From: Gemmatimonadota bacterium
GTDB taxonomy: Bacteria; Gemmatimonadota; Gemmatimonadetes; Gemmatimonadales; Gemmatimonadaceae
Length of the DNA stretch: 40,549 nt
Direction: 5' to 3'
Assembly (NCBI GenBank): GCA_947471365.1
Contig: CANIWQ010000011.1
Span: forward strand, 1-40,549
The notes under the pieces are model-generated. The model searched no databases and was not told the DNA's origin. It saw only the letters and a program-made list of their open reading frames with translations. A program made the position numbers and the translations under genes. Shown piece after piece: positions 11,378 through 33,423 of this stretch; within the stretch, counting starts at the first letter, position 1, and each line of letters opens with the position of its first letter.

Positions 11378-11518
11378 CGGAGTTCCAGGGTTGGTGGGTC
11401 GGTGGTAATGTACGCGACTTCGCTCCGTTTCGTCGGGGGCCGTCGCGCGCGCTGGCGCCGAGGTGGGACGCCCCTAGCTTTCACACAGGGAGTTTCCTCA
11501 CAACACAGAGCAACAGCC

Positions 11519-12098: not shown

Positions 12099-12134
12099 CT
12101 GCCGACCGCGTCTCGTCTGCGTGCGGTCGGTCAG
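12099..12134. terminator. Bidirectional hairpin terminator at the end of the aromatic cluster
   Basis: An 8-bp perfect stem (CCGACCGC at 12102-12109, GCGGTCGG at 12123-12130) with a 13-base loop, extended by CTG/CAG across a bulged T. It sits between the convergent hemerythrin and had genes and overlaps the had stop codon. It would terminate the long minus-strand transcript; no strong T-run follows. Confidence 0.5.
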
Positions 12135-13210
12135 CCCGGAACGAGCACCACCCGTTTCGTGAGCCGCCCGTGGTGCGCATCGTCAAACACTTCGTTGATG
12201 CGATCCAACGGATGGCGCTCAATGTACGGCTTCACCGTCACCCGCCCCTCGCCAATCCACTGCAGCAGTTCTGGGTAGATGAGCGGATCGGCGCCCCAGT
12301 TACCGCGCACGGTGGCGTCGTACGCCATGAGGTTCGAGAGACTCACCTCGACTCGGTCCATCGTAAACCCAACCACGGCGAGCGACGCGCCAAAGCCAAG
12401 CAGCGAGTAGGCCGTCTCCTGACCAGCGCGCGTTCCTGACATTTCAAAAATCTTCCACAAGTGTGCTGGCGCTCCGAGCGCCTCGGCGAGCGAGCGCACT
12501 TGTTTGCGCACATCCTTGGTTGCCATGTCGCGCACATTGAGCACCGCCCCCGCCCCGGCCTCTCTCGCCTGAGCAAGTTTGCGATCGTCTACGTCGAGCG
12601 CGATTACCTTGGCGCCCGTCGCTGCCGCGATCTGCACGCCGTACACACCAATGCCGCCGATACCCACGATCAGTGCGGTTTCGCCGCTCGCGAGCCCCGA
12701 CCGTTTGACCGCTTCAAATGGCGTCGCCACCGCGTCGGACACGACGCTCAGTTCCCATAGATCATGCGTGGCGAGTGCCGCGGCCGGAACAGGACAGAGA
12801 AAGCGCGCCGGCACCACGACGTGCGAGGCGAAGCCGCCGTTGCCGTCGTTGCCTGGCATCACCTGACGCCGGCAGATCGTCCGGTGCCCCGAGCGGCACA
12901 AATCGCATTCGCCGCAGGGCAGAACCGCGGGCACGACCACGGCACGGCCGATCAGTGACGCGTCCACTCCCTCACCGACTTCGCGTACGACGCCGCTGAT
13001 TTCGTGGCCGAGCACCAGGGGAAGCGCGCCGCGTGTTTTGACGCCGTGATGCAAGAACGAGACATCCGTGTGGCACACCCCACACCCCGAGACCTCGATG
13101 GTCGCCTCTCCTGCCGCTGGGGGACGAGGCACTAACGACCGGTGCTCAAAGGGCGCGCCAGGCGCCGTCATCATCCACGCATCCCACATTCCGTCCCGTC
13201 GGGTCGTCAT
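12131..13210 (-). CDS. had: 6-hydroxycyclohex-1-ene-1-carbonyl-CoA dehydrogenase
   Basis: A zinc-type medium-chain dehydrogenase (359 aa) that would oxidise 6-hydroxycyclohex-1-ene-1-carbonyl-CoA to the 6-oxo compound with NAD+, the step before ring cleavage. Seen are the catalytic zinc ligands in GCGVCHTD (Cys46, His47) and GHE (His69, Glu70), four structural-zinc cysteines in CGECDLCRSGHRTIC, a Rossmann motif VGIGGIG, and MPGNDGNGGFASH with the C-terminal VFDDAHHGRLTKR. The last two recall the Had family of Thauera and Azoarcus and differ from ordinary alcohol dehydrogenases. Placement in a bcr cluster supports the specific call. ATG 13210 starts two bases after the upstream stop; TTG 13216 and ATG 13189 are alternatives. 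This is the last gene of the minus-strand unit. Confidence 0.85.
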   Translation of the reverse strand: MTTRRDGMWDAWMMTAPGAPFEHRSLVPRPPAAGEATIEVSGCGVCHTDVSFLHHGVKTRGALPLVLGHEISGVVREVGEGVDASLIGRAVVVPAVLPCGECDLCRSGHRTICRRQVMPGNDGNGGFASHVVVPARFLCPVPAAALATHDLWELSVVSDAVATPFEAVKRSGLASGETALIVGIGGIGVYGVQIAAATGAKVIALDVDDRKLAQAREAGAGAVLNVRDMATKDVRKQVRSLAEALGAPAHLWKIFEMSGTRAGQETAYSLLGFGASLAVVGFTMDRVEVSLSNLMAYDATVRGNWGADPLIYPELLQWIGEGRVTVKPYIERHPLDRINEVFDDAHHGRLTKRVVLVPG

Positions 13211-13212
13211 CG

Positions 13213-15135
13213 TCAATGGCTCAATTGGGTGGGTTCTGCATCGGGAGCATCACCAAACACGAAGCTCCCACAGGAATGGCATTGGTCAAGCGAACGTTCA
13301 ATTCCAGCAAAGCAAGCACGATCGTCCGGCCTGAGGCGCATCACCTTCCGTAAGAACCGACAGTCACAGTCCGCGCTCGGCGCATACACCGCTTCCAGAT
13401 ACTCCTCCGCATTCGACAGCACGTTGCGCACCCGTACCTTCATGGAGGGGGTGAGCTCCTCATTCTCAATCGTGAGCTCTTTGCTGATGACGGCAAAGGC
13501 CTGAATGCGCTCGTACCTCACCGGATGATCGCTATTGAAGGCGAGGAGCGTGGTGCGCAACGATTCTTTGACGACACGCTCTGCCGCCTCACGATCATCG
13601 CCGAACTGCTCTGCGATACGGAAGTAGTCAGGAAATATCAGGGCGGCGAGGAATCGCTCCCCCTGCCCCGCAACGATGACATGGCGGATGTAGTTATTCA
13701 TCCCCGCCAAACGGTTCTCGATTTCGGTTGGGACGACCTTTTCGGCGTTCAACATTTTGAAGACGCGGTCTTTACGCGCCACAAGCTTCAGTCCTGCACC
13801 CACAAACTCGCCGAGATCGCCGGTGTGGAACCAGCCATCACCCGGAAGCGCCTGCGCGGTGGCCTCAGGGTTTCCGAAATAGCCACGCATCACATTGGGG
13901 CCGCGCACTAATATCTCGCCATCCGCGGCAATGCGAATGGTCACGCCGGGAATCGGATATCCCACCATTCCCGGCACGGTGCGCGGCTGCGCGAGATCGG
14001 TGAGCGTGCAGCACGGGGACGTCTCAGTGAGTCCCCAGCCCTCAAGAACGGCCACGCCCTTGGAGGCGAAGTACGCCGATACATTTGCCGGCAGCGGCGC
14101 GGCCGCGGTGAAAACAAAGCGCAGTCCAGCATGAAAGATACTGCCTTCGTCTTCCGGACGTGACTGCACATGTGTCACTAACTGCTGATACACCTGTGGC
14201 ACGCTAAAGTAGATCGTTGGTCGAACCGCGGCCCAGTTGCGCCGCAGCGCATCAAAGTCTTTGCCGCGCGAGGTGTCTATATGAATCGTCGCGCCATTAT
14301 ACAACGCGGAATACTTCTCAAAAATTCCACCGAAGCTGTGATGCCAAGGAAGATACGACAGGAACCGGTCATGGTGTGTAACCGACCAGATCGCCGACAG
14401 CGCACGTTGCTGCGACAAGATGTTGTCGTGCGTGAGCAGCACACCTTTGAGTACGCCGCTCGTTCCCGAGGTGAAGTTCAGCAGGCATGGCTCGTTGGGA
14501 TCGATTTGCGATGCGTGTGCTGCAAAGGCGGAGCACCGCACCGTATCGCTGGCACCACTCGAGAGGGCGTCGGCGAACGTGGAGTAACGGGCCGCCGAGC
14601 CCTGTACGATCCCCTGCACCACGGTCGCATCCACCGCGTCAAAGGACACCAGCGCGCGCGTTGCTGTGCTGAGTGCGACGCCGGCCACCTGATCGCGGCC
14701 AGCGACAATAATGACGGTGGGTTGCAACTGACCGAGCAAACCTTGTACTTGGTCCGCAGGATAGGCGGAGAAGATGGGCGCGTACGTGGCACCCAGGCCC
14801 ATCGTGGCGAACTCTGCGACGAGCATCTCGCCGCGGTTGGGCGAGACCATCGCGACCCGTGTGCCGGGGCCGACACCTTCGGATGCGAGAAATGCTCCGA
14901 ATGACGCCACGTCGCGTGCGAAGTTGTTCCACGTCACCGCGCGGTATGCACCATCACGCAGTTCGCTGAACACGGCGTGGTCGCCAAAGCGCGCCACATT
15001 GCGCGCGAGCAACCGGCCAATACTCTCAGGCACTCCCACCGTCTCCAATTGGGAGCGAATGGTGTCACCTTCGCGAATGGCAGCGAGTGCGTGCTTCATG
15101 GCGGCCGGTGCTCCATCGGTGTGGTCAATCGCCAT
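13213..15135 (-). CDS. AMP-forming acyl/aryl-CoA ligase with Cys-rich tail
   Basis: An ANL-superfamily ligase (640 aa) that activates a carboxylic acid to its CoA thioester. Signature motifs are present: FTSGTSGVLKG (P-loop-like), GWGLTETSP, GWFHTGDLGE and KDRVFKMLNAEKV. The length and C-terminal pattern resemble long-chain FadD-type enzymes rather than the 520-530 aa benzoate-CoA ligases, so the substrate may be benzoate, an alicyclic or a fatty acid. The context favours an aromatic or ring acid. Oddly, the last ~50 residues carry five cysteines (Cys590, 592, 608, 619, 622, pattern CxC...C...CxxC), which is not part of the ligase fold and looks like an added metal-binding tail. ATG 15135 overlaps the upstream ATPase gene by 11 bases; ATG 15144 is equally possible. 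Confidence 0.82.
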   Translation of the reverse strand: MAIDHTDGAPAAMKHALAAIREGDTIRSQLETVGVPESIGRLLARNVARFGDHAVFSELRDGAYRAVTWNNFARDVASFGAFLASEGVGPGTRVAMVSPNRGEMLVAEFATMGLGATYAPIFSAYPADQVQGLLGQLQPTVIIVAGRDQVAGVALSTATRALVSFDAVDATVVQGIVQGSAARYSTFADALSSGASDTVRCSAFAAHASQIDPNEPCLLNFTSGTSGVLKGVLLTHDNILSQQRALSAIWSVTHHDRFLSYLPWHHSFGGIFEKYSALYNGATIHIDTSRGKDFDALRRNWAAVRPTIYFSVPQVYQQLVTHVQSRPEDEGSIFHAGLRFVFTAAAPLPANVSAYFASKGVAVLEGWGLTETSPCCTLTDLAQPRTVPGMVGYPIPGVTIRIAADGEILVRGPNVMRGYFGNPEATAQALPGDGWFHTGDLGEFVGAGLKLVARKDRVFKMLNAEKVVPTEIENRLAGMNNYIRHVIVAGQGERFLAALIFPDYFRIAEQFGDDREAAERVVKESLRTTLLAFNSDHPVRYERIQAFAVISKELTIENEELTPSMKVRVRNVLSNAEEYLEAVYAPSADCDCRFLRKVMRLRPDDRACFAGIERSLDQCHSCGSFVFGDAPDAEPTQLSH

Positions 15136-15967
15136 CGTCAGCATCCGTCGGCGTTGTTGTGCGAGGTGTAGCCGGCACACTGCCTGGCCCTACCGACACC
15201 GCGCCGTCACGAGCCGCGAGCGCCGCGCCAAATGCGCCCATCTCCTGCGGATGTGGTGGCACGATCACGTCGGTCCCCGTCGCCTCAGAGAGGAGCGTCA
15301 CCATGGTTGGGTGATGGGCGACCACACCGCCGGTCGCCACCACGCGCCCCTCGAACACATCCATCGCGATCACTCGCTTCATGAGCGACCGATACGCCGC
15401 CATAGCCAGATCGGCGGGACGCCGTCCTGACCGAATGAGCGTGAGTAATTCCGTGCCAGCAAACACCGTGCAGAAACTGGAGAGTTCCAACTCTTCGGTT
15501 GCTCCCGCAGCGAGCGGGTCGAGCGCGGCCGTATCGATGCCGAGACGGAGGGCGATTTCGTCGAGAAAGCTTCCCGTGCCTGCCGCGCACTTGCGATTCA
15601 TCCGGTGCGAGAGCCGCTGCCCATTCGCATCAATGCGAATCACTTTGGCATCTTGTCCGCCAATGTCAATCACCACCAGCGGCCCCTGCACATGAAACGC
15701 GGCGCCACGACCATGGCAGTCCAGTTCCGTGCGCGATCCATTCGCAAATGGCACTGCGTTGCGACCGAAACCCGTCGACCACACCGCCGACACATCAGCC
15801 GCCGCACAGCCGGCAGCCGCCAGCGCTTCGGCGTAGGCCCGCTCCGCCGCCACGGTGAGATCGGCGCCGGAGCGCACCACGCTGGTGCCGAGCACGTGGC
15901 CCGCGTCATCAATGACCACGGCTTTCGTGTTCCACGATCCGCTGTCCACTCCGGCAAAGCGCGCCAT
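15125..15967 (-). CDS. BadF/BcrA/HgdC-type ATPase (second module, activase 1)
   Basis: A 280-residue ASKHA-fold ATPase of the 2-hydroxyacyl-CoA dehydratase activator / benzoyl-CoA reductase ATPase family. These are homodimers or heterodimers with a bridging [4Fe-4S] cluster that couple ATP hydrolysis to low-potential electron transfer. Seen are VDSGSWNTKAVV (phosphate 1), DIGGQDAKVI (phosphate 2), the cluster-ligand cysteines Cys127 in RKCAAGTGSFLDEIA and Cys166 in SSFCTVFAGTE, and ATGGVVAH (adenosine). All key positions are intact. It has the short form, lacking the ~140-residue insertion of BcrA. Its ATG shares one base with the stop of the upstream HgdB-like gene. It likely pairs with the second ATPase at 17220-18017 or acts as a homodimer. 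Confidence 0.9.
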   Translation of the reverse strand: MARFAGVDSGSWNTKAVVIDDAGHVLGTSVVRSGADLTVAAERAYAEALAAAGCAAADVSAVWSTGFGRNAVPFANGSRTELDCHGRGAAFHVQGPLVVIDIGGQDAKVIRIDANGQRLSHRMNRKCAAGTGSFLDEIALRLGIDTAALDPLAAGATEELELSSFCTVFAGTELLTLIRSGRRPADLAMAAYRSLMKRVIAMDVFEGRVVATGGVVAHHPTMVTLLSEATGTDVIVPPHPQEMGAFGAALAARDGAVSVGPGSVPATPRTTTPTDADDGD

Positions 15968-17220
15968 TATCGCGTCACTCGGCTAGCGTGGGTGCGCGCG
16001 TCCGAGAGTTGCTCCACAAAGCCTTCGATGTTCGTGCGCGCTTGCTCGTCGGAGAAACAGCGCAAATCGTTGACGTCGCCGTCAAGCACAAGCGTGGGGA
16101 TGCCGAGTTTGTCGGACAACCGACGTGGCATGCCGTAGCGCGTGTTCGTGTTATTCGGGCAGGTGCGGCAGTCGTGAAAGACGATGCCGTCCACGTCGTA
16201 CAGCTCCACCATGCGCTCGATATAGCGCTCCTTGGGGCCATCGGATCGCGCAATGAACAACTCCACCGATGCGCGCGCCATCGAGCGCCACGGGTCGGCG
16301 GGGTCGAGCATCGAGAAAATCCAGCTGTTGCAGTAGGTGGACGCCACCACCGCCGTGTGGAACTCTGCGAATGTCGTGGAGAGCGCACGAAGCCGTCCCC
16401 AAACCGGCATACCATCCCAGTAGAGTCGGAGCGTTTCGCCAGGCACCGCCTGCACACCGCCGCGCACGCGCTCCTCGAGCTCCGCAAGCAACACGTGGTA
16501 GTAGGCCGCTGCCTCTGGAGCACCGCGGAGTACCACCGCCGGCCCCATGTGGATGGTGCCATCGAAGAACGTGAACGGGGACGGCTTGTTCGCCGCGGTG
16601 TGCAGGCAGCGCTCCCACAGTTCTGACGCTTCGCGCGCGGATTTCATCGCGGCGGCGAGGCGCCCACCGTCAAGCCGCACACCGGCCACCGACTCCAGCA
16701 CGGGGACGAGCGCTTCGAGCTGCGCCGTGACGTCGTCTACTTCTGCGTCGGTGACATCGCCCACCGAGCGCGGCGAGTTGATACCCACCACCGGCGCGTT
16801 CCATTGACGGCCATACCACTCGAACCAGTCGCGTACGTCGCGGCACTGATTGGTATTGAACACGAGCACGTCCGCACGCGGTACACCGGTCAGGCCAAAC
16901 GCTGAGAGCGGCGACTCGCCGGCGAGGTACGCGCCCACATCGCTCGTGAGATACGAACAGATATCCTGCGAATACCCCTGTGCGTGTGCCACGGGGAGAT
17001 ACTTATTCGCCGTGCGTCCCGCGCCGAGCATTGCGGCATGATTCTCGGGAAAGTGCACGGCAAACCCAAGCGCGCGCAGCAACTCTGCGGGTCCGACGCT
17101 CGTGCACCACGCCACCGGCGCCGATTTGGTCGTGACCGCGTCGCCGAGCGTCTTGTAGTAGGCGCTCATCGTGTCGCGTAGCGCCGCGGTGCTCCGCAGT
17201 TCCGTGCGTGCTTCGGCCAT
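15967..17220 (-). CDS. HgdB/BcrC-like 2-hydroxyacyl-CoA dehydratase subunit
   Basis: A 417-residue protein of the HgdB/BcrB/BcrC (2-hydroxyacyl-CoA dehydratase D-component) family, whose members bind a [4Fe-4S] cluster that receives the activated electron for ketyl-radical chemistry. The likely cluster cysteines are present: Cys39 in VAWCTSVGP, Cys88 in QDICSYLTSD and Cys351/Cys354 in HDCRTCPNNTNTRYG. It retains a cysteine at the first position (Cys39), where BcrB and BcrC of this window have none. The surroundings (two ATPases and the PanE fusion) form a four-gene module. Substrate is unknown. ATG 17220 overlaps the upstream ATPase stop by one base. Confidence 0.88.
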   Translation of the reverse strand: MAEARTELRSTAALRDTMSAYYKTLGDAVTTKSAPVAWCTSVGPAELLRALGFAVHFPENHAAMLGAGRTANKYLPVAHAQGYSQDICSYLTSDVGAYLAGESPLSAFGLTGVPRADVLVFNTNQCRDVRDWFEWYGRQWNAPVVGINSPRSVGDVTDAEVDDVTAQLEALVPVLESVAGVRLDGGRLAAAMKSAREASELWERCLHTAANKPSPFTFFDGTIHMGPAVVLRGAPEAAAYYHVLLAELEERVRGGVQAVPGETLRLYWDGMPVWGRLRALSTTFAEFHTAVVASTYCNSWIFSMLDPADPWRSMARASVELFIARSDGPKERYIERMVELYDVDGIVFHDCRTCPNNTNTRYGMPRRLSDKLGIPTLVLDGDVNDLRCFSDEQARTNIEGFVEQLSDARTHASRVTR

Positions 17221-18017
17221 CAGCTCTCCTGCGCTTGCTGGAAGACGCTGAGCGACGCTCCGAGGGCCGCCGTAAAGATCGCATCAGGAACCGCCTGCAC
17301 GCTCAACCCCGTCATCGCTTCGAGCGCGGTGAGTACGCCCGGGAAGTATTCCACCACACCGCCGCACACCACCACGGGCTCGTCAAAACCTCCAATCTCG
17401 ACAATTCGCTCCGCAATCGAATGCATGCACCCGAGGGCGATTTCTTCGCGTGTGGCCCCCTCGCGGAGCCGTTCGAGCACCTCGGAGGCGGAATACACGG
17501 AGCAGTAGCTACTCACGCGAGCGGCCCGATCGCCCGCCGCGGATGCCAACTCCTGGAGCCGCGTGGGACTGACGTCGAGATGTCGGGCGGCGAACATGAG
17601 GAAGCTGCCAAGCCCGACGGCACAGCGGCGTGCACCACGCGCGGCGGTGCGACGGCCTTCGGCGTCCACCGAAATCACGTGCGGATCTCGTCCGCCAATG
17701 TTCACGAGCGTCATGGCATGACCAATGTGCTGAAAGGCACCAAAGGCATGCGACGATGCTTCGGTGATCGTCACGGTGGCTTTGGGCACGCAGTCCATAC
17801 CGAAACCGGTCGCACCAATCCCGGTGAGCTCTTCTTCTTTGCGCTGCGCGTCATCGAGTGCGGCCGCGAGCGCTTCGTACACGCAGGCCTGAAAATATCC
17901 GCGGGTCGCCAGCACCGAGCGGCCAATCACGCGACCGTCCTCCGCCGCGATGATCGCCTTCACGCACTCCGTACCGACATCGATTCCTGCAGCGATGCGC
18001 AGCGCTCGTTCAGCCAT
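17220..18017 (-). CDS. Divergent BadF/BcrD-type ATPase (second module, activase 2)
   Basis: A 265-residue ASKHA ATPase of the same family as the neighbouring activase but more divergent. The bridging-cluster cysteines are kept (Cys132 in RRCAVGLGSF, Cys172 in SSYCSVYSASE) and phosphate-1 reads AGIDVGTECVKAI. The phosphate-2 loop reads NIGGRDPHVI where others have DIGGQDxKxI, and the usual CAxGxG is CAVGLG. It may therefore be the weaker or regulatory half of a heterodimeric ATPase, as BcrA and BcrD are unequal in benzoyl-CoA reductase. It lies 27 bases after the PanE-HgdB fusion and overlaps the HgdB-like gene by one base. Confidence 0.85.
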   Translation of the reverse strand: MAERALRIAAGIDVGTECVKAIIAAEDGRVIGRSVLATRGYFQACVYEALAAALDDAQRKEEELTGIGATGFGMDCVPKATVTITEASSHAFGAFQHIGHAMTLVNIGGRDPHVISVDAEGRRTAARGARRCAVGLGSFLMFAARHLDVSPTRLQELASAAGDRAARVSSYCSVYSASEVLERLREGATREEIALGCMHSIAERIVEIGGFDEPVVVCGGVVEYFPGVLTALEAMTGLSVQAVPDAIFTAALGASLSVFQQAQES

Positions 18018-18044: not shown

Positions 18045-20345
18045 TCATTGCGCACCAATCCGTTCGGCGCGATGCTCAAGAAAATCGGAAAACTGTTCCT
18101 GCAGTCGTTCGGTCGAAAAGAGCCGCAGATCGTGTGAATCGGCTTCAATCACCAACCCTGGCACCTGCGCGAGATGCTCGGTGCGCGACAACGGCCCATA
18201 CCGTACGTGACTGGTTTCAGGCGTCGTGCGGCAATCGTGATACACCGCTGCGTCCACGGAGTACTGCTCAAATTGCTGGGCGAGGTATGCCGCCCGATAA
18301 TCTTCCGACCGATTGTCAAAGATGCCGGTATATGCGCGGGCCATGCTTTCGAGCGGGTCGACGGGGTCGAGTCCGTTCAACGCAAATTCCGAACAGAAGG
18401 TCGAGGCGACGATCGCGGCTCCCGCTTCCTCAAAGAGTCGGGCCAATGGACGCAACGCACACCAAATAGGTGGTCCGTCCCAGTAGAGGCGATGCGACTC
18501 ATTGGGCACGGCCGACACGCCTTGCACCACACGATCCTCAATCTCCGTCTTGAGTTGCCGGTAGTAGTCCACCGCGTCCGCCGTCCCGCGCAGCAGGATC
18601 ATGGGCGCGACATGAATGAGCGTATCAAAGAAAGTGATCGGAGCCGGCGTGTGGCGCGCGAGCGCGAGAATATCGCCCCACAGCTCAGCCGCCTGCGCCG
18701 AGTACCCCACCACCTCGCCGAGCCGGTCCATATCGAGCGACCGGCCGCTCGCCTCTTCAAGACGCCGCTGCAGTCGCAGGAGCTGGTGTACGGCCGCGTC
18801 GACGTCGATCTGTTCGAGCACGTCCAGCGCTGGCGGCGGATGCACACCCATGACGGGTACGCCATAGTGCGACCCGTAAAACTCAAACCAGCGCACCAGT
18901 TCGTGGCCCGTATTCGTGCTATAGGTGACGATATCGGGACGCGGGACGCCCGCAATGCCGTGCGCATCAGTGAGCGGCGTGGTTCCGGTGAGCAACGCGC
19001 CAATGTCCGTGCGCATTGCGGAGCTCACGAACTGAGAGAATCCGTCAGCGGTCGCGCGCGCGATGTACGGGCCCGCGCGCCGTGAGGCCGCAATCAGCGC
19101 CGCATGATTTTCTGGGAAGTACGGCACAATGTCCATGGCCCGCAGCAGTTCTACCGGACCGAGCCCAGACACGGCCGCTACGAGGCGGGTCGAATCTTCT
19201 GAGGCCGCTGCGAGATCGAGGTAGTACTCGTGCATCAGCTCCTTCAGACGGCGCGTGCTTTCCAGCGGCGGGCCACCGGGCGGCATCCCCGCATCGGCGT
19301 CCCGTGGCGCGGTACGCGCTGGCACGCGCGGAACAGCGCGCAAGCGGGGGCGCGGCGCTTCTTCTTCTGCCGCGCGCGTGCGGTCGAGTCCGAGTTGCTG
19401 CACGATCTCTTGCTTGCGCAGGAACTTCTGCCGCTCGCGGGAATGGATGAACCGCACGAGGGCGGAGTTGTGCGGCACCGAAAGTCCGAGCCGGTCGGCC
19501 TCACGGACAATGGCGCCGTTGAGCGCGTCGATTTCCGTGCGCGTGCCGCGGGCCAGATCCTGCCACATCGACGGGCGATTCTTCCCGAGTGCTTTGAGTG
19601 ATCCAGTCACCGGACGGAAGGGATCTTCTTCGTCCATAATCGGGACGCCGCGCGCGCGCATCACCGACACAATCTCGTTGCACAAGTCGCGCATGAACGC
19701 CATGAGCTGTTCGTCGGCGAGCAGTTCGCGGCAGGTGAGCCCGGTGATTGCGGACGTCGGGTTCACGACAGCGTTGTGCAACAGTTTCTGCCAGAGCGCG
19801 TGATCGACGTTCGGCACCACGTTGGTCTCGAACCCCGCCTTCCGGAACGCGACGGCAATCGCCTCCACTTCCGGCGTCGCCCCGCCCTCCACGGCCGAGA
19901 TCTGAATTGGCTTGATGCCAGCGCGGTAGCGTAACCGCCCCGGCCCTGAATGCTCGATGCTGTGATACGTCACGCCACATAGCACGCGTGATGCGCCCAC
20001 GATCTCGGCGATCGCTTCGGCATTGCCAATGCCATTCTGCAGCGAAAAGAACAGCGTGGCTGGGCTCGTGGCGGCGAGGGCCGCACGCACCGCGTCTTGC
20101 GTCTGGTATGTCTTCGTGGCCACAAACACGAGCTCGAATGGCGCGAGCCCCACGACTGAGGTCACAACGTGAATCGGAATAGTGGTCTCATCCTGCCCCA
20201 CGCGCGTGATGTGCAATCCGGCGGCGGCGAGTAGTTGCGCGCGCGCCTGATTGACTTCGAGCAACGTCACGTCCTCGCCGGAGCGCGAGAGATACGCGCC
20301 CACGAGTCCACCCAGTGCTCCGGCCCCGACGATCAGGATCCGCAT
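18045..20345 (-). CDS. Fusion: ketopantoate reductase-family domain + HgdB/BcrC-like domain
   Basis: A 766-residue two-domain protein. Residues 1-305 are a complete PanE/ApbA-family NADP-dependent 2-oxoacid reductase: GAGALGG (8-14), Asn105 in SLQNGIGN, catalytic-type Lys187 in LWQKLLHNAVVNP, and Glu271 in TEIDALNGAIV. A Pro/Arg/Glu-rich linker (about 325-360) joins it to an HgdB/BcrC-like domain (365-766) similar to the neighbour at 15967-17220. Where that neighbour has cysteines, this domain reads VAAVSGLGP and FVSSAMRTD; only Cys705 in HDCRTTPETS remains. It may thus be a structural partner or bind a different cofactor. ATG 20345 is supported by a strong GGAGGGGA just upstream. An internal ATG at 19286, before the second domain, could yield that domain alone. 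Combining 2-oxoacid reduction with 2-hydroxyacyl-CoA dehydration in one polypeptide is chemically sensible but unproven. Confidence 0.88.
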   Translation of the reverse strand: MRILIVGAGALGGLVGAYLSRSGEDVTLLEVNQARAQLLAAAGLHITRVGQDETTIPIHVVTSVVGLAPFELVFVATKTYQTQDAVRAALAATSPATLFFSLQNGIGNAEAIAEIVGASRVLCGVTYHSIEHSGPGRLRYRAGIKPIQISAVEGGATPEVEAIAVAFRKAGFETNVVPNVDHALWQKLLHNAVVNPTSAITGLTCRELLADEQLMAFMRDLCNEIVSVMRARGVPIMDEEDPFRPVTGSLKALGKNRPSMWQDLARGTRTEIDALNGAIVREADRLGLSVPHNSALVRFIHSRERQKFLRKQEIVQQLGLDRTRAAEEEAPRPRLRAVPRVPARTAPRDADAGMPPGGPPLESTRRLKELMHEYYLDLAAASEDSTRLVAAVSGLGPVELLRAMDIVPYFPENHAALIAASRRAGPYIARATADGFSQFVSSAMRTDIGALLTGTTPLTDAHGIAGVPRPDIVTYSTNTGHELVRWFEFYGSHYGVPVMGVHPPPALDVLEQIDVDAAVHQLLRLQRRLEEASGRSLDMDRLGEVVGYSAQAAELWGDILALARHTPAPITFFDTLIHVAPMILLRGTADAVDYYRQLKTEIEDRVVQGVSAVPNESHRLYWDGPPIWCALRPLARLFEEAGAAIVASTFCSEFALNGLDPVDPLESMARAYTGIFDNRSEDYRAAYLAQQFEQYSVDAAVYHDCRTTPETSHVRYGPLSRTEHLAQVPGLVIEADSHDLRLFSTERLQEQFSDFLEHRAERIGAQ

Positions 20346-20376: not shown

Positions 20377-21156
20377 TCACCGGTTCTTCCACGCGGGACG
20401 CCGCTTCTCAAAGAACGACGCAATGCCTTCGCGCACATCCTCGGTGGCCATGAGTTCACTCAAAAACACACGCTCCGCCTCTAGGCGGGCTTCTTCGAAC
20501 GGACGTCCGTTTAACGACTTGGCGAGCCGAACATTCATGCGCATCACCAACGGACTCGCCCGCCGGAGGTCGCTCAGCACCTGCGCCAGCGCCGCTGCCA
20601 ATCCGCCTTCGGCGACCACCCGTGACACCAAGCCCATCGTGTGCATCTCGGCCGCGGAGTACGTGCGACCAGTCGACGTCACCTCAATGGCCCGCGCCAC
20701 CCCAATGCGCGCCGGCAACCACGCCACCCCCACCGGCGCAAAGAAGCCGATTCGTATTTCAGGCTGACCGAAGGTCGAACGCTCGGTGGCGAGGAGCACA
20801 TCGGCCATCATCACCAACTCAAAGCCCGCGCCGAGCGCCGCGCCGTCCACGGCCATCACCATGGGCAGCTCAAGCGCGCCGAACGCGGCAAACAAGCGAC
20901 TGAACCCGGCAATCATCCCCGGCGCTTCTTCCGGCCGGTGATCACCGACGTCGGCGCCCGCCGAGAACGCTCGGCCCGCCGATTCCAGTACCACCGCCTT
21001 CAGCGTTCGGTCGCCCTGCGCCCGCTCCACCGCTTCAGCGAGTTCATGCATCGTCGCCGATCGCAGCACATTCACCGGCGGCACGTCGAGCGTGAGGAAC
21101 GCAACATCGTCGCGCACCTCGTACCGCACCGCTGGGAGAGCCACTGTCTCGGTCAT
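20377..21156 (-). CDS. dch: Cyclohexa-1,5-dienecarbonyl-CoA hydratase (probable)
   Basis: A crotonase-fold protein (259 aa). In this context it most likely adds water to cyclohexa-1,5-diene-1-carbonyl-CoA, the product of benzoyl-CoA reductase, giving 6-hydroxycyclohex-1-ene-1-carbonyl-CoA. Seen are the CoA/oxyanion loop AFSAGADVGDH, GAALGAGFELVMMADV, and FGQPEIRIGFFAPVGVAWLP. The last has the 'GQPEI...PPV...LP' character of Dch rather than the 'GTIPGAGGTQRL' of general enoyl-CoA hydratases. Both glutamates at the usual catalytic positions are present. ATG 21156 is chosen for its GAGAGGAAAG site and the family length. The alternative is a generic enoyl-CoA hydratase. Confidence 0.72.
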   Translation of the reverse strand: MTETVALPAVRYEVRDDVAFLTLDVPPVNVLRSATMHELAEAVERAQGDRTLKAVVLESAGRAFSAGADVGDHRPEEAPGMIAGFSRLFAAFGALELPMVMAVDGAALGAGFELVMMADVLLATERSTFGQPEIRIGFFAPVGVAWLPARIGVARAIEVTSTGRTYSAAEMHTMGLVSRVVAEGGLAAALAQVLSDLRRASPLVMRMNVRLAKSLNGRPFEEARLEAERVFLSELMATEDVREGIASFFEKRRPAWKNR

Positions 21157-21166
21157 TGCTTTCCTC

Positions 21167-21928
21167 TCAGGTGTACTGGCCGCCATCGACCTTGATGACC
21201 TCGCCCGTGACGTACCGAGCGCGATCGGACAACAAGAATGCCACCACCGACGCCACTTCGTCGGGTTCACCGAGGCGACCAAGCGCCGACTCTGCAGAGG
21301 CGCGCTCAAGGACAACCGGTGGCACGATGTCGGTCATCTCGGTGCGAATGAAGCCTGGCGCGACGCAGTTCACGTTCACGCCGCTTGGGCCAAGTTCGCG
21401 CGCCAACGTCTTGGTCAGGCCAATCACACCAGCCTTGGACGCCGCATAGTTGGATTGCCCGAACTTTCCGCGCATCCCATTGATCGAGGCGATCGTGACA
21501 ATACGTCCACCCTGTTGGGCGCGAAACAGCGGCGCCGCGGCTCGGCAATACGCAAAGCACCCCTTCAGGTTCACATCGAGCACCGCATCCCACGCCGCCT
21601 CGGTCATCTTCCACGACACGCCGTCACGCGTAATGCCCGCGTTGCACACGATTCCGTCAAGTTTCCCAAGCGCCGCGACGGCCGCCGCGACCGCCGCTTC
21701 GGCAGCCGCGAAATCCGACACATCCGCTTTCAACGCCACCGCCTTGCGACCCATCGCGCGCAACTCCGCCGCGAGTCGCTCGGCGTCGTCAAAGGCACCG
21801 AGATCTACGAGGGCGACATCGCTCCCCTGCTGAGCGAGTTCGCGAGCGATGGCCGCGCCAATGCCGCGGCCACCGCCAGTCACGAGGGTCGCCTGCCCTG
21901 CGAGATCGCGTTTCATCGTCCGTGTCAT
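21167..21928 (-). CDS. SDR-family 3-hydroxyacyl-CoA/3-oxoacyl reductase
   Basis: A short-chain dehydrogenase/reductase (253 aa), FabG-like. Motifs: TLVTGGGRGIG (cofactor), DVSD, NAGITRDG, Ser148 in TIASINGMRG, and Tyr161/Lys165 in YAASKAG, so the catalytic set is complete. It probably oxidises a 3-hydroxyacyl-CoA (such as 3-hydroxypimelyl-CoA after ring opening) or reduces the 3-oxo form. FabG proper cannot be excluded, but no other fatty-acid synthesis genes are nearby. ATG 21928 overlaps the stop of the ring-cleavage hydrolase gene by four bases (ATGA), so the two are translationally coupled. Confidence 0.85.
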   Translation of the reverse strand: MTRTMKRDLAGQATLVTGGGRGIGAAIARELAQQGSDVALVDLGAFDDAERLAAELRAMGRKAVALKADVSDFAAAEAAVAAAVAALGKLDGIVCNAGITRDGVSWKMTEAAWDAVLDVNLKGCFAYCRAAAPLFRAQQGGRIVTIASINGMRGKFGQSNYAASKAGVIGLTKTLARELGPSGVNVNCVAPGFIRTEMTDIVPPVVLERASAESALGRLGEPDEVASVVAFLLSDRARYVTGEVIKVDGGQYT

Positions 21929-22884
21929 GTGAGTTTGGCGCCGCAACCGCCACAGAAGGTGAACTGCTTCGGGATTCCCTTGGCACCGCAGCCGCCACAC
22001 GTCTGGCTGTACGGCCCCCAGAGGAATTCGCTGCTCGCATGTTCGTCAGCGGCTTTCTTGCGAAGACCCATGAAGTCGATTTTTCGCTTCTCCACAAACG
22101 CCTGCATGCCTTCGTACGGCTCAAGCGTCGTGAAGTGCGTGGAGAGCCAGTCGCGCGCATGACCGACGGTCGCGTGCCACGAAGCTTCCTTCCAGTAGTT
22201 CACCTGCTGCTTGGTGTAACGCGTGCACTCCGGGAATTTCTCGAGGAGCTGTTTCACCAGCGCGTTCACTTCGTCGTCGAGCTGGGCGCGCGGGACGACA
22301 CGATTCACCAACCCCCACTCCAAGGCTTTCGCCGCCGGAATGCGCGGATTGAGGAATAGCATTTCGCGCGCGCGCCGGTCGCCGACGTGAATCGACAGCC
22401 ACTGCGTGGCGCCGCCGCAGGCGACGCTCCCGACGCTCGTGCCAACCTGGCCGAGGTAGGTGTCATCGGCCATCACCGCAAGATCGCAGGCGAGCTGCGT
22501 TTCGTTGCCGCCGCCCACCGCGATGCCATTGAGGCGCGCGATGGTAACCTTCCCACTGCGCAGGATGCTTTCGATGTACTTGGCGAACAGCCCCATGTAC
22601 TTGAAGTAGTCGTGCGGGCTTTGCGTGTACGTGCCTGCATACTCTTTCACATCGCCACCGGTGCAGAACGCTTTATCGCCAGCACCCGTCAGCACAATCA
22701 CACCTACGGTGTCGTCATTCGACGCATCGTCGATGGCCGTGATCAGTTCTTGCAAGGTGGACGTCGTGTAGCAGTTGAAGGACTCGGGGCGATTGATCGT
22801 AATACGCCCCACCCAGTCCTTCTTCTCATACAGGATGTCTTTGAATCCGAAGCTGGAAGCCTCTTTGGAGGCGAAATAATTCAT
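21925..22884 (-). CDS. oah: 6-oxocyclohex-1-ene-1-carbonyl-CoA hydrolase-like, with zinc ribbon
   Basis: A crotonase-fold ring-cleavage hydrolase candidate (319 aa). Oah/BamA adds water to 6-oxocyclohexene-carbonyl-CoA and hydrolyses the ring to 3-hydroxypimelyl-CoA. Family-like segments are NRPESFNCYTT, AGDKAFCTGGDVKEYAG, DYFKYMGLF, IAVGGGNETQLACD, GQVGTSVGSVACGGAT, FPECT and WHATVGHARDWL. It lacks the insertion of roughly 50 residues that, as I recall, characterised Oah proteins carry after the VP strand (here VPRAQLDDEV). It also ends in an added CxxC-x11-CxxC ribbon (Cys296, 299, 311, 314). BadI-like 2-ketocyclohexanecarboxyl-CoA hydrolase is the main alternative. ATG 22884 has GGAGAGGG upstream; ATG 22905 is possible. 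Confidence 0.7.
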   Translation of the reverse strand: MNYFASKEASSFGFKDILYEKKDWVGRITINRPESFNCYTTSTLQELITAIDDASNDDTVGVIVLTGAGDKAFCTGGDVKEYAGTYTQSPHDYFKYMGLFAKYIESILRSGKVTIARLNGIAVGGGNETQLACDLAVMADDTYLGQVGTSVGSVACGGATQWLSIHVGDRRAREMLFLNPRIPAAKALEWGLVNRVVPRAQLDDEVNALVKQLLEKFPECTRYTKQQVNYWKEASWHATVGHARDWLSTHFTTLEPYEGMQAFVEKRKIDFMGLRKKAADEHASSEFLWGPYSQTCGGCGAKGIPKQFTFCGGCGAKLT

Positions 22885-22914
22885 GGCTGGTGCCCTCTCC
22901 GTCATTCCACGTGT

Positions 22915-24144
22915 TCAGCGCATGCTGACTTTCAATACCACCGCGGCGGCGCTGTCGCCTGCGGCACAGCCAGTGAACAGTCCATACCCACCACCGGTCA
23001 TCGCGAGATCTTCGATGAGCTCGATCACCGAACGGAGCCCCGTGGGTCCCTGCGGGTGGCCCCACACGAGCGAACAGCCATGTCGGTTCATCCGCTCTGG
23101 GTCGAGCTTGAGTTCGCGCGAGAGGTACACATCGTTGACCGCGAACGGATTGTGCGACGTCACGCTGCCGAGTTGGGTAGCCGTGATGCCCGCCCGTTCA
23201 AGTGCCTGCGCCGCTGCCGGTACGACGGCCATTGGCATGAACCCCTTCTTCACGCGCGCTTGGCCAACCGAGAGGAGCTGCACATCCACCAAGCCAGCCG
23301 GCGCGATTGCACGGGCGCGATCGCGACCAGCGGTGAGCACCATACCGGCATTGCCGTCGGCGGGATGCGTTTGCGTTCCGAAGGTCACCGATCCGCCTTC
23401 GATCACAGGGCGCAATCCAGCAAGGCCCTGCGCGGTGGTGCCATGGACGCCTTCATCGCCGCTCACGGTCGCGACGACCTTTTTGCCACGAGCATCTTTT
23501 ACTTCGAGCGGCCACGGCATGTAGCGCTTGAGGAATGCACTGTCATCAGCGGTAGCAGTGGCATACTGCGCATACCGCAGGAGCGTCATCTCCTCCTGCT
23601 GCTCGCGCGTGATGCCCGCTTCCTTGGCCACGTTCTCCGCGGTCTGCAACATCGAATTCTTGGCCCACGGATCGTGACCAAAGCTATCGAGCACAAGATT
23701 CTCAGCGTCGCCCGTCCCACCAGGACCGGCGGGGTTCGGGTAGAAAACGTGCGGCCCATTGCTCGTGCGGTCGGCCGCGGCGGCAAGGTACACGGTGGCG
23801 CCACCGGTGCTCAGCTCTTGCGCAGCGGTCGCGAGACAGCGCACCGACGTGGCGCAGGCCTGACTGATCGTTGGGCCGGTCGTGTGGCCGAGGCCGGCCA
23901 AACCAGCGAACCAGGGCGTGCCGTAGAACGAGTACTTGCTCGCTACGGTGATGCCGAGGCAGAGACCGTCGATTGTCGCGGGTTCGATATGGCGCTGCGC
24001 GAGCGCCCGCGCGGTGACTTCTGCGGCGAACGGAATCGGCGGAAGCGTTGCCAAACTTCCCTGCCACGAGCAAAATGGCGTCGACCAATATGCGCCATAG
24101 GGAATGAACACATCGTTGAACTGCACGGTCGTACCCCTCGTCAT
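22915..24144 (-). CDS. Thiolase-family acyl-CoA acetyltransferase
   Basis: A thiolase-superfamily protein (409 aa) that probably performs the thiolytic step in beta-oxidation of the ring-opened C7 dicarboxyl-CoA. Seen are the nucleophile Cys97 in SQACATSVRC, the SHNPFAVND segment, GHPQGPTGLRS with the base His363, and a second reactive Cys393 in TGCAAGDSA. It diverges from classical FadA/PhaA and is nearer to the 'acetyl-CoA acetyltransferase / SCP2-like' branch seen in other aromatic and steroid clusters, so chain-length specificity is open. ATG 24144 is preferred; ATG 24168 would add eight residues. Confidence 0.82.
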   Translation of the reverse strand: MTRGTTVQFNDVFIPYGAYWSTPFCSWQGSLATLPPIPFAAEVTARALAQRHIEPATIDGLCLGITVASKYSFYGTPWFAGLAGLGHTTGPTISQACATSVRCLATAAQELSTGGATVYLAAAADRTSNGPHVFYPNPAGPGGTGDAENLVLDSFGHDPWAKNSMLQTAENVAKEAGITREQQEEMTLLRYAQYATATADDSAFLKRYMPWPLEVKDARGKKVVATVSGDEGVHGTTAQGLAGLRPVIEGGSVTFGTQTHPADGNAGMVLTAGRDRARAIAPAGLVDVQLLSVGQARVKKGFMPMAVVPAAAQALERAGITATQLGSVTSHNPFAVNDVYLSRELKLDPERMNRHGCSLVWGHPQGPTGLRSVIELIEDLAMTGGGYGLFTGCAAGDSAAAVVLKVSMR

Positions 24145-24190
24145 CGGGAATCCCACCGGCGCCGGCATGGAGCCGGTGCACCATCCAGCA

Positions 24191-24844
24191 CTATTTGCCT
24201 CCCTTCCTCCGCTTGAGTCCATGCATGACGAGATCGCGCATTTCTTCGCCGATCTGCGACACGCTCCCGTGACGGGACGGTTCGTACCACATGAAAATCC
24301 AGTTGAGCATGCCAAAGATGAACAGCGTCGCGTGGCGACTCTGCCGCGTTTCTTTCGCGGACGCCTGGCGCGCCTGCATCACATCGGTGACCACGGATGT
24401 CATCAACCGATAGTATTTCCGGCGTATCGCTTCGACGGTGCGGTAATCGTCAACGGAGAGCGACTCAAGCTCGAACGTGCAGGCCTTCAACTCGTTCGTG
24501 TGCTTCGCATAAAACTCCAGGTGTCCCGTCAGCAGCCGCGCAAAGCGTTCGTCTGGCGTTCCGGGGAGTGCGGCGATCACCTGCTGCGACTCGAGCAGCG
24601 CCGAGAACGTCCGGTGTTGCAACTGATACAGCAGGTCTTCTTTGCTCGAGAAATAGTGGTACAAACCCGCCAGACTCGCGTCGATCGCTTTGGCGAGGTC
24701 GCGCATGGTCGTTGCTTCGAATCCTTTCTTCGCGATCAGCGCGGCTGCTTTCATCAGCAGTTCGTCGAGTTTGCGTTGCGTTTTTTCGCGAGCCAGTCGT
24801 GGCCCGGGTGCCGTGGGGGTTCGAGCGCGCTTGATGGGTGTCAT
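24191..24844 (-). CDS. TetR-family transcriptional regulator
   Basis: A 217-residue TetR-type repressor. The N-terminal helix-turn-helix is clear: LLMKAAALIAKKGFEATTMRD, then LAKAIDASLAGLYHYFSSKEDLLYQL. A helical ligand-binding domain follows, with a C-terminal FMWYEPSRHG segment. Such proteins in acyl-CoA catabolic clusters usually bind a CoA thioester as inducer; here a ring or ring-cleavage CoA ester is likely. ATG 24844 overlaps the stop of the molybdenum-enzyme gene by four bases, so it is expressed from within the operon it probably controls. The palindrome at 33293-33308 is the best candidate operator. This differs from BzdR or two-component control in Azoarcus and Geobacter. Confidence 0.9.
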   Translation of the reverse strand: MTPIKRARTPTAPGPRLAREKTQRKLDELLMKAAALIAKKGFEATTMRDLAKAIDASLAGLYHYFSSKEDLLYQLQHRTFSALLESQQVIAALPGTPDERFARLLTGHLEFYAKHTNELKACTFELESLSVDDYRTVEAIRRKYYRLMTSVVTDVMQARQASAKETRQSRHATLFIFGMLNWIFMWYEPSRHGSVSQIGEEMRDLVMHGLKRRKGGK

Positions 24845-27687
24845 CCTCGTGCTCCAGTCGCCACGGCGGCCGCTCCACCATTGGCCTTGATGCCGCGTAG
24901 AATCTTCTCTGGGGTGATCGGCAGTTCCGTCACCCGCACGCCACACGCGTTGTAAATGGCGTTTGCAATCGCGCCAAACACGGGAAGCATAGAGCCCTCC
25001 CCGATTTCCTTTGCGCCGAACGGACCACGCGGCTCAAAGCTCTCCACGGCCGCCGTATGAATCGCCGGCGTCTCGGCGATCGTCGGAATGAGATAGTCGT
25101 GGAGATTGGCGTTAGCAAACTTACCGCTGGGACCCACGATCGTGTCCTCAAGCAGCGTCTCACCCAACCCCATGATGATTGCGCCCTCAACCTGACCGTG
25201 CAGCGTCACCGGATTGATCACGGTTCCGGCATCGCTGTAGTCCGTGAAGCGATCGACGGTCACATACCCGGTTTCTAAATCCACGGTCACTTCGGCCACC
25301 GCCGTCGAGAAGCTATAAGCGGGGGAGGTGCCCACCGTGCCGCCCTTGAACTCGCCGCCGAGATGCTTGGGCGGCGAATACGAACCGGTGCCAACCACCG
25401 GACCCTTCTTTGAGAATGCCGCGCGTGCGACATCGGCCCAGGACATTCCGACGGACGGATGTTGCGGCACAAAGATGCGACCATCGCGCACGGTCAGCGC
25501 TGTGGGGTCGCAACCCAACTCTCGGGCCGCCACTTCGCGGAGCTGCGCCGACACATTCGCGGCCGCCATCTTCACGGCATTGCCGCCCATAAGGGTCACG
25601 CGACTCGAATAGGAGCCCAGGTCGAGCGGACTGACCGTCGTGTCACAGTCCGCCATCCACACCCACTCGTACGGTACACCAAGCTCCTCGGCGGCGATCT
25701 GCACCAACACGGTGTCTGAGCCCTGCCCAATCTCCGCCGCGGCAATGTGCAGCGTCACGCCGGTGCCATCCTCGTGTACGCGGATCATGGCGTTGGAGTG
25801 CGGGAAGTCCGATCGGTAAATCGGATATCCCGCGCCCGACACAAAGCCGCCGCAGCCGACGCCAATCCCCTTGCCCGGCGGTAGCTTGCCGCGCTTCTCG
25901 GCCCACCCAGATGTCTCGCGCGCGCGATTGAGTGTGGCAATAAACTCACACGACGAAATGTCGAGCGCATTGCCAGTACGCGTATTCGGTTCCATGGCAT
26001 TCTTGAGCCGAATATCAAAGGGATCGATACCGAGTTCTTCGGCCATCATGTCGAGCAATGATTCAAAGGCAAAGCGCGGCTGTGGTACCCCGTGTCCGCG
26101 GAACGCGCCGGACGCCGGTAGGTTCGTGTACACGCGCGTGCCTTCATACTTGTAGTTCGGAATTTTGTAGAGCGTCGGCAGCATCGACCCCGCGTAGTAC
26201 GCCGTGATCACGCCGTACGACGTATAGGCGCCACCATCCAGCACCACGGTATGTTCCGCGGCCGTGATTGTGCCGTCTTTCTTGAGACCGATCTTGAGAT
26301 CGATGTATTGCTTATGACGGCCGCGGAAGTGCGTGTACATCTCCTCCCGCGTGTACTCCATCGCGACGGGGCGCCCCGTCATCTTAGAAAGGATCGCCGC
26401 GCAGAAATCGAGCGGTGTCGCTTCCGCCTTGGCACCGAATCCGCCGCCGACCGCCGGGCGAATAACGCGAATGCTCCCCATGGGAACGCCGAGCACGCGC
26501 GAGAGCGAGCGGTGCAGATAGTGCGGCGTTTGTGTGGAGGACCAGAGGGTCAGACGATCGCCGTGATGCTCCCAGCGCGCCAGCGCCGCATGCGGCTCCA
26601 TCGGCGACTGGTACGTACGATTGCCAATAAATCGCTCTTCCCGCACGAGGTCCGCCTCGGCGAATCCCTTCTGCACGTCGCCAAAGTGCCAGTCCACGCG
26701 CGTGTTGATGTTGCCCGCGTAGCGCGGCTTTTCTGGATGGATCACTGGCGCACCGGGCGCCATCGCCGCCACCGGATCAAAGACCGCCGGCAGCTCCTCG
26801 TACTCCACTTCAATCAGCTTGAGCGCCGCTTCGGCGGTTGCGTCGTCCAATGCTGCTACCGCAGCCACTTCATCGCCCACGTAGCGGACGCGCTCCTTGG
26901 CGAGAATCTGTTCATCTTCGCGGGCGGGGCTCACGCCGTAGAAGGCGTCTGGCACATCGGCGCCGGTGATCACCGCCAGCACGCCCGGCAAGGCGCGTGC
27001 TTTGGTTACGTCAATGCGCTTGATGATCCCGTGCGCCACCCTGCTTCCCAGAATCTTGCCGACGATCGTGTCGGGGAGGTGCAGGTCCGCCGTGTACTTG
27101 GCACGCCCGGTGACTTTGTCCGGTCCGTCGTAGCGCGTGACGCCGTGACTCACCGTATCGTGATCGCGCACCTGGTCGCGTTCGGCGTGCCCGTGCGGTT
27201 TGGAGTTGAAGGGCACGCCCTCGAACTCTTTCCACCCAGACACCGCTTTGATCATGCGCGGGTATGTTGCGCAGCGGCACAAGTTGCCCGAGAGCGCTTC
27301 TTTGATCTCGCCCTCAGTCGGCGTCGGATTTCTGTCGATGAGCGCCTTCGATGCCATTACCGCGCCGCTCGTGCAATAGCCGCACTGAATCGCCCCGTGC
27401 TTGACGAACGCATGCTGCAGGGGGTGCAATTCACCGTCGTGCGACAGTCCTTCGATGGTCGTAATGCGCTTTCCCTGCGCCGCGACGGCCAGCATGAGGC
27501 ACGAGTTTACCGGATCGCCGTCCACCTGTACGGTGCACGCGCCACAGTCGCCCGTGCCGCATCCCTTCTTGGTGCCGGTCAGCCCAAGGTGTTGCCGCAA
27601 CGCGGCGAGCAGCGTGGTGTTCGGTTTGAGCGCGAGGGTACGATCCTCACCATTGATGTTCAAACGAACGAGGACTTCGGTGCTCAT
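24841..27687 (-). CDS. Fused [2Fe-2S] + molybdopterin subunit of a hydroxybenzoyl-CoA reductase-like enzyme
   Basis: A xanthine oxidase-family molybdenum hydroxylase (948 aa) joining two subunits that are usually separate. Residues 1-160 hold two [2Fe-2S] clusters (Cys43/48/51/63 in KGCGTGDCGACT and beyond; Cys102/105 with Cys137/139 in NLCRCA). From about 175 onward is the molybdopterin domain, with QSPMEPHAALA, AVGGGFGAKAEA, AFRGHGVPQPRFAFE and GPFGAKEIGEGSM, where the C-terminal Glu matches the active-site base. In a benzoyl-CoA cluster the best guess is 4-hydroxybenzoyl-CoA reductase (HcrC-HcrA fused), removing a phenolic hydroxyl; an aldehyde or N-heterocycle hydroxylase is possible. It overlaps the FAD-subunit gene and the TetR gene by four bases each. 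Confidence 0.82.
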   Translation of the reverse strand: MSTEVLVRLNINGEDRTLALKPNTTLLAALRQHLGLTGTKKGCGTGDCGACTVQVDGDPVNSCLMLAVAAQGKRITTIEGLSHDGELHPLQHAFVKHGAIQCGYCTSGAVMASKALIDRNPTPTEGEIKEALSGNLCRCATYPRMIKAVSGWKEFEGVPFNSKPHGHAERDQVRDHDTVSHGVTRYDGPDKVTGRAKYTADLHLPDTIVGKILGSRVAHGIIKRIDVTKARALPGVLAVITGADVPDAFYGVSPAREDEQILAKERVRYVGDEVAAVAALDDATAEAALKLIEVEYEELPAVFDPVAAMAPGAPVIHPEKPRYAGNINTRVDWHFGDVQKGFAEADLVREERFIGNRTYQSPMEPHAALARWEHHGDRLTLWSSTQTPHYLHRSLSRVLGVPMGSIRVIRPAVGGGFGAKAEATPLDFCAAILSKMTGRPVAMEYTREEMYTHFRGRHKQYIDLKIGLKKDGTITAAEHTVVLDGGAYTSYGVITAYYAGSMLPTLYKIPNYKYEGTRVYTNLPASGAFRGHGVPQPRFAFESLLDMMAEELGIDPFDIRLKNAMEPNTRTGNALDISSCEFIATLNRARETSGWAEKRGKLPPGKGIGVGCGGFVSGAGYPIYRSDFPHSNAMIRVHEDGTGVTLHIAAAEIGQGSDTVLVQIAAEELGVPYEWVWMADCDTTVSPLDLGSYSSRVTLMGGNAVKMAAANVSAQLREVAARELGCDPTALTVRDGRIFVPQHPSVGMSWADVARAAFSKKGPVVGTGSYSPPKHLGGEFKGGTVGTSPAYSFSTAVAEVTVDLETGYVTVDRFTDYSDAGTVINPVTLHGQVEGAIIMGLGETLLEDTIVGPSGKFANANLHDYLIPTIAETPAIHTAAVESFEPRGPFGAKEIGEGSMLPVFGAIANAIYNACGVRVTELPITPEKILRGIKANGGAAAVATGARG

Positions 27688-33311: not shown

Positions 33312-33343
33312 AATATACTTGAACATTGTACCACGCTCGTCAA
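33312..33343. promoter_or_regulatory. Candidate divergent promoter elements
   Basis: This is the most AT-rich stretch of the region. On the minus strand TTGACG (33338-33343) and TATATT (33312-33317) resemble -35/-10 boxes, but the spacer is 20 bases, longer than ideal. On the plus strand TATACT (33314-33319) could be a -10 box without a good -35. Both are tentative. A plus-strand start here gives a leader of about 100 bases for the fusion gene. Confidence 0.3.
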
Positions 33344-33423
33344 TAGGGGTTACCCTGTCATCGATGGCTCGCGCCGCCGGCCCCCGTGGCCGAGCCGGAC
33401 GGCGGGCCCAGAGGATCAAGGCC

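Follow-up and report, generated by a model that had tools for sequence, protein, structure and literature searches.

A ketopantoate-reductase-family domain fused to a cluster-free dehydratase-type subunit in a benzoyl-CoA operon of Gemmatimonadota

The stretch of DNA analysed here (the window; 40,549 nt of contig CANIWQ010000011.1, assembly GCA_947471365.1, from a Gemmatimonadota bacterium of the Gemmatimonadaceae) carries on its minus strand what is, by predicted gene content, a complete operon for anaerobic benzoyl-CoA degradation. Coordinates are window positions, and genes lie on the minus strand unless stated otherwise. From high to low coordinates the operon comprises bcrCBAD (28623-33206), encoding a class I, Thauera-type benzoyl-CoA reductase (BCR; bcrB, bcrC and bcrD score above their NCBIfam cut-offs and bcrA just below, 570 vs 578), a 4-hydroxybenzoyl-CoA-reductase-like enzyme (24841-28559; fused gamma-alpha 24841-27687, beta 27684-28559; nearest PDB entry 1rm6), a TetR-family regulator (24191-24841), a thiolase (22915-24150), an oah/badI-like ring-cleaving hydrolase (21925-22905), a FabG-like SDR dehydrogenase (21167-21931) and a dch-like dienoyl-CoA hydratase/enoyl-CoA hydratase (20377-21153). 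Beyond dch lies a gene, panE::HGDx (18045-20345), in which a ketopantoate-reductase-family domain is fused to an HGD-D domain. It is followed by a BadF/BcrA-type ATPase activase, Act2 (17220-18017), an alpha-type HGD-D subunit, HGD2 (15967-17220), a second BadF/BcrA-type activase, Act4 (15125-15967), an AMP-binding acyl-CoA ligase (13213-15144) and had, for 6-hydroxycyclohex-1-ene-1-carbonyl-CoA dehydrogenase (12131-13210; TIGR03201 over cut-off). The two activases are unlike each other, and each has both cluster Cys motifs intact. The genes overlap or are spaced by at most 63 bp, act2, HGD2 and act4 being joined by -1 overlaps, and the operon contains no CoA-transferase gene.

Some of these genes have peculiarities of their own. 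The Oah-like hydrolase ends in a zinc-ribbon-like CxxC-CxxC tail and the acyl-CoA ligase in a Cys-rich one. The beta subunit of the 4-hydroxybenzoyl-CoA-reductase-like enzyme (291 aa) agrees with the HcrB model over some stretches only and may lack the extra [4Fe-4S] loop; another Gemmatimonadota genome, G167, encodes a full-length HcrB-like beta subunit.

The fused gene (P0001) reads from an ATG at 20345 to a stop at 18047-18045, a single frame of 766 codons as the preliminary description had proposed, although that description omitted the strand. Its 766-residue product contains three Pfam domains, each above its gathering cut-off: ApbA (residues 3-152; 8e-35), ApbA_C (179-303; 3e-34) and HGD-D (397-757; 2e-50). 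These divide it into a PanE/ApbA half (aa 1-310; 19416-20345), a Pro/Arg-rich linker (aa 311-355; 19281-19415) and the HGD-D half, here called HGDx (aa 356-766; 18048-19280). The linker varies in length and is in frame in every homologue; its pLDDT below 50 in the predicted model (about residues 310-357) points to disorder. The fused frame is intact at 17 loci in 16 independently assembled Gemmatimonadota genomes (60-96% identity), with no stop or frameshift between the domains, an outcome the preliminary description had left open. Named MAG contigs in public records, sampled from fen, palsa, groundwater and elsewhere, carry it as well (some of them are the same contigs as those of the 17 loci), and its hosts are soil and wetland Gemmatimonadota. 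Between pairs of homologues dN/dS lies at 0.03-0.13 (PanE half), 0.03-0.25 (HGD-D half) and 0.07-0.49 (linker). An assembly artefact is ruled out by the 17 unbroken loci together with this purifying selection. The ATG at 20345 is preceded by GGAGGGGAG. The preliminary description would have taken the fusion as refuted if the only product were a separate second domain starting at the internal ATG at 19286. That codon is Met354, which is replaced in 7 of the 17 homologues, so that such a product is not conserved, and I saw no ribosome site at good spacing before it. Thus the fusion is real, old and kept by selection, because it is unbroken at 17 loci, its dN/dS is low and the internal start is not conserved.

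The surroundings are as constant as the frame. At every locus the fusion sits in the same benzoyl-CoA operon, between dch and the block of activase, HGD-D subunit, activase, ligase and had, and wherever enough contig is available the run from the fusion through act2, HGD2, act4 and the ligase to had is contiguous and co-oriented. The order of the operon as a whole is likewise conserved in related loci with enough contig; G167 has no SDR match and carries other BCR and Hcr-like genes. At one locus, L048 (G168:C94), homologues of window 33319-35451, bcrA and bcrD (at about 1790, 5737 and 6540) each lie in two pieces and look frameshifted, by assembly error or decay. Genome G307 holds two diverged copies of the operon, L046 (G307:C144) and L047 (G307:C60), whose fusions are 86% and 63% identical to that of the window; duplication, transfer or a mixed bin could account for them.

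A contig scan across species, sensitive to close relatives only, found the fusion only in Gemmatimonadota, and no plasmid record matched over 80% of the fusion query. A literature search returned no paper joining '2-hydroxyacyl-CoA dehydratase' with 'ketopantoate reductase', and I found such a fusion described nowhere. To judge from its genes, the system is a new variant within the family of BCRs and 2-hydroxyacyl-CoA dehydratases (HADs), apparently undescribed.

What, then, does the PanE half do? Its two Pfam domains and its catalytic Lys, Asn and Glu place it in the PanE/ApbA family, in agreement with the preliminary description. K72, N98, K176, N180, N184 and E256 (E. coli KPR numbering; the reference sequence agrees with PDB 1yjq over its whole length) and the glycine-rich loop are invariant in the 17 homologues. 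Structural matches of the predicted model include ketopantoate reductases as well as D-mandelate dehydrogenases (PDB 3WFI, 8WL1). With the ketopantoate-reductase family, which includes NADH-dependent D-mandelate dehydrogenases, the PanE half shares the fold and the catalytic K, N and E; it differs in its C-terminal HGD-D fusion, in a Cys at the position of E. coli KPR N194 in all fusion homologues and in an acidic end of beta2. The last of these (Glu or Asp in 16 of 17) suggests use of NADH rather than NADPH, because the NADP-binding relatives 3hwr and 5hws have Arg there.

It is tempting to see in this domain simply the ketopantoate reductase with which the cell makes coenzyme A, accidentally fused, since it passes TIGR00745 (256 vs 141 bits) and the genome of the window has no other PanE. 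However, that genome has no panC, as is the case for 17 of the 18 genomes of its genus, and several genus members without the fusion give no PanE match either. Given the missing panC, the absent beta2 Arg and the Cys in place of N194, a role in pantothenate synthesis is very improbable. The loss of panC across the genus suggests, as a separate matter, pantothenate auxotrophy or an unrecognised route. PanE-family enzymes yield (R)/D-hydroxyacids. This is the stereochemistry needed by the known dehydratases, which act on (R)-2-hydroxyacyl-CoA (PMC11971306, PMC8473912).

The preliminary description called the second domain HgdB/BcrC-type. The HGD-D family assignment holds (Pfam), and a predicted model of HGDx superposes on 3o3m_C with a TM score of 0.92 (target-normalised), but BcrC is not its type: a maximum-likelihood tree groups HGDx with HGD2 as its sister clade (100/99), both among the alpha (HadB/BcrB) subunits and apart from HadC and BcrC. 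What that description missed, and what is the main point as far as the residues tell, is that the cluster site of HGDx is lost while that of its neighbour HGD2 is intact. In HadB numbering (3o3m, the alignment reference), all 17 HGD2 proteins have the cluster cysteines C84, C117 and C346, whereas none of the 17 HGDx domains has any of them; the residues there are Ser/Asn, Gly/Ser and Thr/Ala/Ser, respectively. HGDx also lacks W34 and the thioester tyrosine Y86 and has mostly lost S37, retaining E55. HGD2 has the equivalents of S37 and E55 at all 17 loci and keeps W34, S37, P54-E55-N56 and Y86 (the further motifs in nine aligned representatives). For comparison, the cluster ligands of BzdO are Cys95, Cys128 and Cys380, and its thioester-binding tyrosine is Tyr97 (PMC11971306).

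Because the three cysteines are lost, HGDx, as its residues stand, cannot itself be the radical subunit. The genome encodes four HGD-D proteins, namely BcrC, BcrB, HGD2 and HGDx, and no beta-type (HadC) partner for HGD2 or HGDx except BcrC. The catalytic pair is thus likely to be an alpha subunit (HGD2) and a degenerate alpha-prime (HGDx), as these are sister alpha clades and the genome has no further HGD-D proteins besides BcrB and BcrC; that the two dimerise would follow from this pairing. A HAD activator is a homodimer with two Cys per subunit, and Act2 and Act4 may each form homodimers or join as a heterodimer. Known dehydratases are alpha/beta heterodimers with a [4Fe-4S] cluster in each subunit and a homodimeric ATPase activator (PMC8473912). 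By its ligands, the HGD2/HGDx pair could not work as such two-cluster enzymes do unless BcrC is borrowed. HGD2 does have the Cys-ligated alpha architecture of a HAD with S37 and E55, but its presumed partner is alpha-type and lacks the three cluster cysteines; with one subunit of the pair short of a cluster, I have not placed the system among the HADs.

The loss of ligands invites the view that HGDx is a scaffold or regulatory subunit, which would sense CoA esters and tether an unrelated PanE-family dehydrogenase to HGD2 with no channelling. Consistent with this, HGDx is under purifying selection despite having lost the cluster ligands and most catalytic residues, and it changes more quickly than HGD2, the mean identity among homologues being 65% for HGDx and 73% for HGD2. 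However, the catalytic residues of the PanE half are fully conserved, as expected if the fused reductase acts on something relevant to the operon, and I consider a mere scaffold quite unlikely. Far harder to credit is the proposal, made in the preliminary description, that the PanE half feeds NAD(P)H electrons directly to the radical enzyme. Physical tethering speaks for it. Hydride transfer in the PanE family proceeds without flavin, however, and Pfam found no flavin domain. With neither flavin nor cluster, the fused protein should be unable to split a hydride into single low-potential electrons, and the acidic (Glu/Asp), NAD-type cofactor loop sits poorly with the NADPH originally invoked.

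The distribution of the module around the fusion bears on its relation to ring reduction. Among Gemmatimonadota genomes with an over-cut-off Thauera-type BcrB the fusion occurs in 15 of 17, against 1 of 378 without (Fisher p 4e-24, although the genomes are related and so are not independent evidence). The single fusion genome lacking such a BcrB is G167, where the module stands beside an MBR-type BCR; the two BcrB genomes without the fusion are G273, whose contig is only 5.9 kb, and G038, which has a diverged BCR cluster and no module. MBR-type (MbdO-like) class I BCR clusters are widespread in the phylum (L094 5600-8909 in G167, L096-L107). I found no module in the 12 other Gemmatimonadota BCR clusters inspected, which are MBR-type and mostly have homologues of Had, Oah and Dch. 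On this showing the module is an addition to the core ring-reduction pathway and not part of it, because these 12 clusters do without it. A tie to the 4-hydroxybenzoyl-CoA reductase was considered and rejected, as a TIGR03194-like enzyme is found in nearly all BCR-bearing Gemmatimonadota, with or without the module.

This setting gives some weight to another explanation, that HGDx, HGD2, Act2 and Act4 form another BCR-like enzyme, one that reduces an aryl- or dienoyl-CoA with stoichiometric use of ATP and whose target would be a substituted benzoyl-CoA or a dienoyl-CoA product, the PanE half oxidising or reducing a side product of the pathway. The paired unlike activases recall BcrA and BcrD, the benzoyl-CoA context holds at every locus, even in G167 with its MBR-type BCR, and the association with Thauera-type BcrB points the same way. 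The active site of HGD2 does not. Its PEN motif, W34 and S37 are as in HadB and a Fusobacterium relative, and neither BCR- nor MBR-type: the same sites read T/P/PEI in BcrB and A or M/PEI in MbdO-type proteins, with PEIN and no serine in either. NCBIfam scores likewise favour HadB, with 191 bits for HGD2 against 129 for BcrB (the true BcrB of the genome scores 174 and 686), and HGD2 falls below the class I BCR cut-offs (BcrB 129 vs 487; BzdO 80 vs 449). Moreover, the operon already encodes a complete BCR, and such a scheme leaves PanE without an evident role. A second reductase is therefore unlikely.

The reading I prefer, with a probability of roughly 0.4, is that of a variant (R)-2-hydroxyacyl-CoA dehydratase encoded within the benzoyl-CoA operon. 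The PanE half, as an NADH-type reductase, would convert a 2-oxoacid to the (R)-2-hydroxyacid, and a CoA ligase, probably that at 13213-15144, would turn this into the CoA thioester. Act2 and Act4, presumably acting as a pair, would activate HGD2 by ATP-driven transfer of one electron, and HGD2, the sole cluster-capable subunit of its pair, would carry out the dehydration through a ketyl radical. HGDx, which arose by duplication of the alpha subunit and has no cluster, would replace the usual beta partner and tether the reductase to the dehydratase, and the resulting 2-enoyl-CoA would pass to beta-oxidation and to the operon's own benzoyl-CoA pathway. As the likeliest substrates, phenylpyruvate and 4-hydroxyphenylpyruvate are a guess from context. 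Of the two proposals in the preliminary description, that of 2-oxoacid reduction coupled to 2-hydroxyacyl-CoA dehydration is the better one: it fits the anatomy of the fusion and the HAD-type residues of HGD2.

Known systems provide partial precedents. HadBC with HadI (Clostridioides difficile; PDB 3O3M) shares with HGD2 the three cluster cysteines, S37, E55 and Y86, and an adjoining ATPase activase; here, by contrast, HadC is replaced by an alpha paralogue without a cluster, there are two unlike activases and a reductase is fused to this paralogue. The phenyllactyl-CoA dehydratase pathway of Clostridium sporogenes (FldH, FldA, FldBC, FldI) follows the same proposed order, 2-oxoacid reduction, CoA activation and radical dehydration of aryl-lactyl-CoA, but it is encoded by separate genes and uses a CoA-transferase, whereas here the reductase is fused, the operon has no such transferase and the setting is a benzoyl-CoA operon. 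Class I BCRs (BcrCBAD, BzdNOPQ, MbdONPQ) likewise have two HGD-D subunits and two unlike activases, and one shares this operon, but HGD2 has HAD-type motifs, cluster ligands are absent from HGDx and a beta-type subunit is missing. Separately, plasmids of Rhodococcus ruber, Sphingopyxis and Azoarcus KH32C (L070, L071 and L077) carry paired 2-hydroxyacyl-CoA dehydratase-like genes together with a single activase gene, an SDR gene and genes for a CoA-transferase or ligase. Two of these three host genera are aerobic.

Several points weigh against a dehydratase. The cluster-free HGDx with two unlike activases, as in benzoyl-CoA reductases, is not what a dehydratase would predict; the ligase, in an operon without a CoA-transferase, could equally serve benzoate or 4-hydroxybenzoate; and the module, missing from 12 BCR clusters, is not needed by the core pathway. 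An aryl-pyruvate substrate is further questioned by the aerobic tyrosine route that module genomes also carry: among 52 genomes searched, 4-hydroxyphenylpyruvate dioxygenase (HPPD) was found in 16 of 16 module genomes and was absent from 27 module-less BCR/MBR genomes. This contrast holds even within one family, and genus members without a BCR also have HPPD, so I set it aside as a substrate marker; the pattern probably reflects lifestyle or phylogeny.

Should the dehydratase reading hold in its fullest form, HGD2 and HGDx would make up a new branch of the BCR/HAD family, in which the catalytic alpha, paired with a cluster-free alpha-prime in place of a cluster-bearing beta subunit, draws its electron straight from a heterodimeric activase and receives the hydroxyacid channelled from the reductase attached to its partner. 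I regard this as possible but doubtful. Its interest lies in the comparison, as the characterised HADs and class I BCRs considered here are alpha plus beta enzymes with a cluster in each subunit, the first of which is held to take the electron of the activator, and a conserved system with a cluster-free partner would offer a direct test of whether the cluster relay is required. Little was found described on anaerobic ring degradation in Gemmatimonadota, and the branch, if real, would let the phylum feed an (aryl) 2-oxoacid anaerobically into the benzoyl-CoA pathway by means of a single operon. Through the fusion, an NADH-type reductase would be attached to a radical enzyme, and 2-oxoacid metabolism linked with anaerobic ring degradation.

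Finally, a hemerythrin-domain protein (11234-12082, plus strand) adjoins had and the benzoyl-CoA operon at most loci and is also encoded near several MBR-type clusters, where it possibly protects radical enzymes against O2 or NO.
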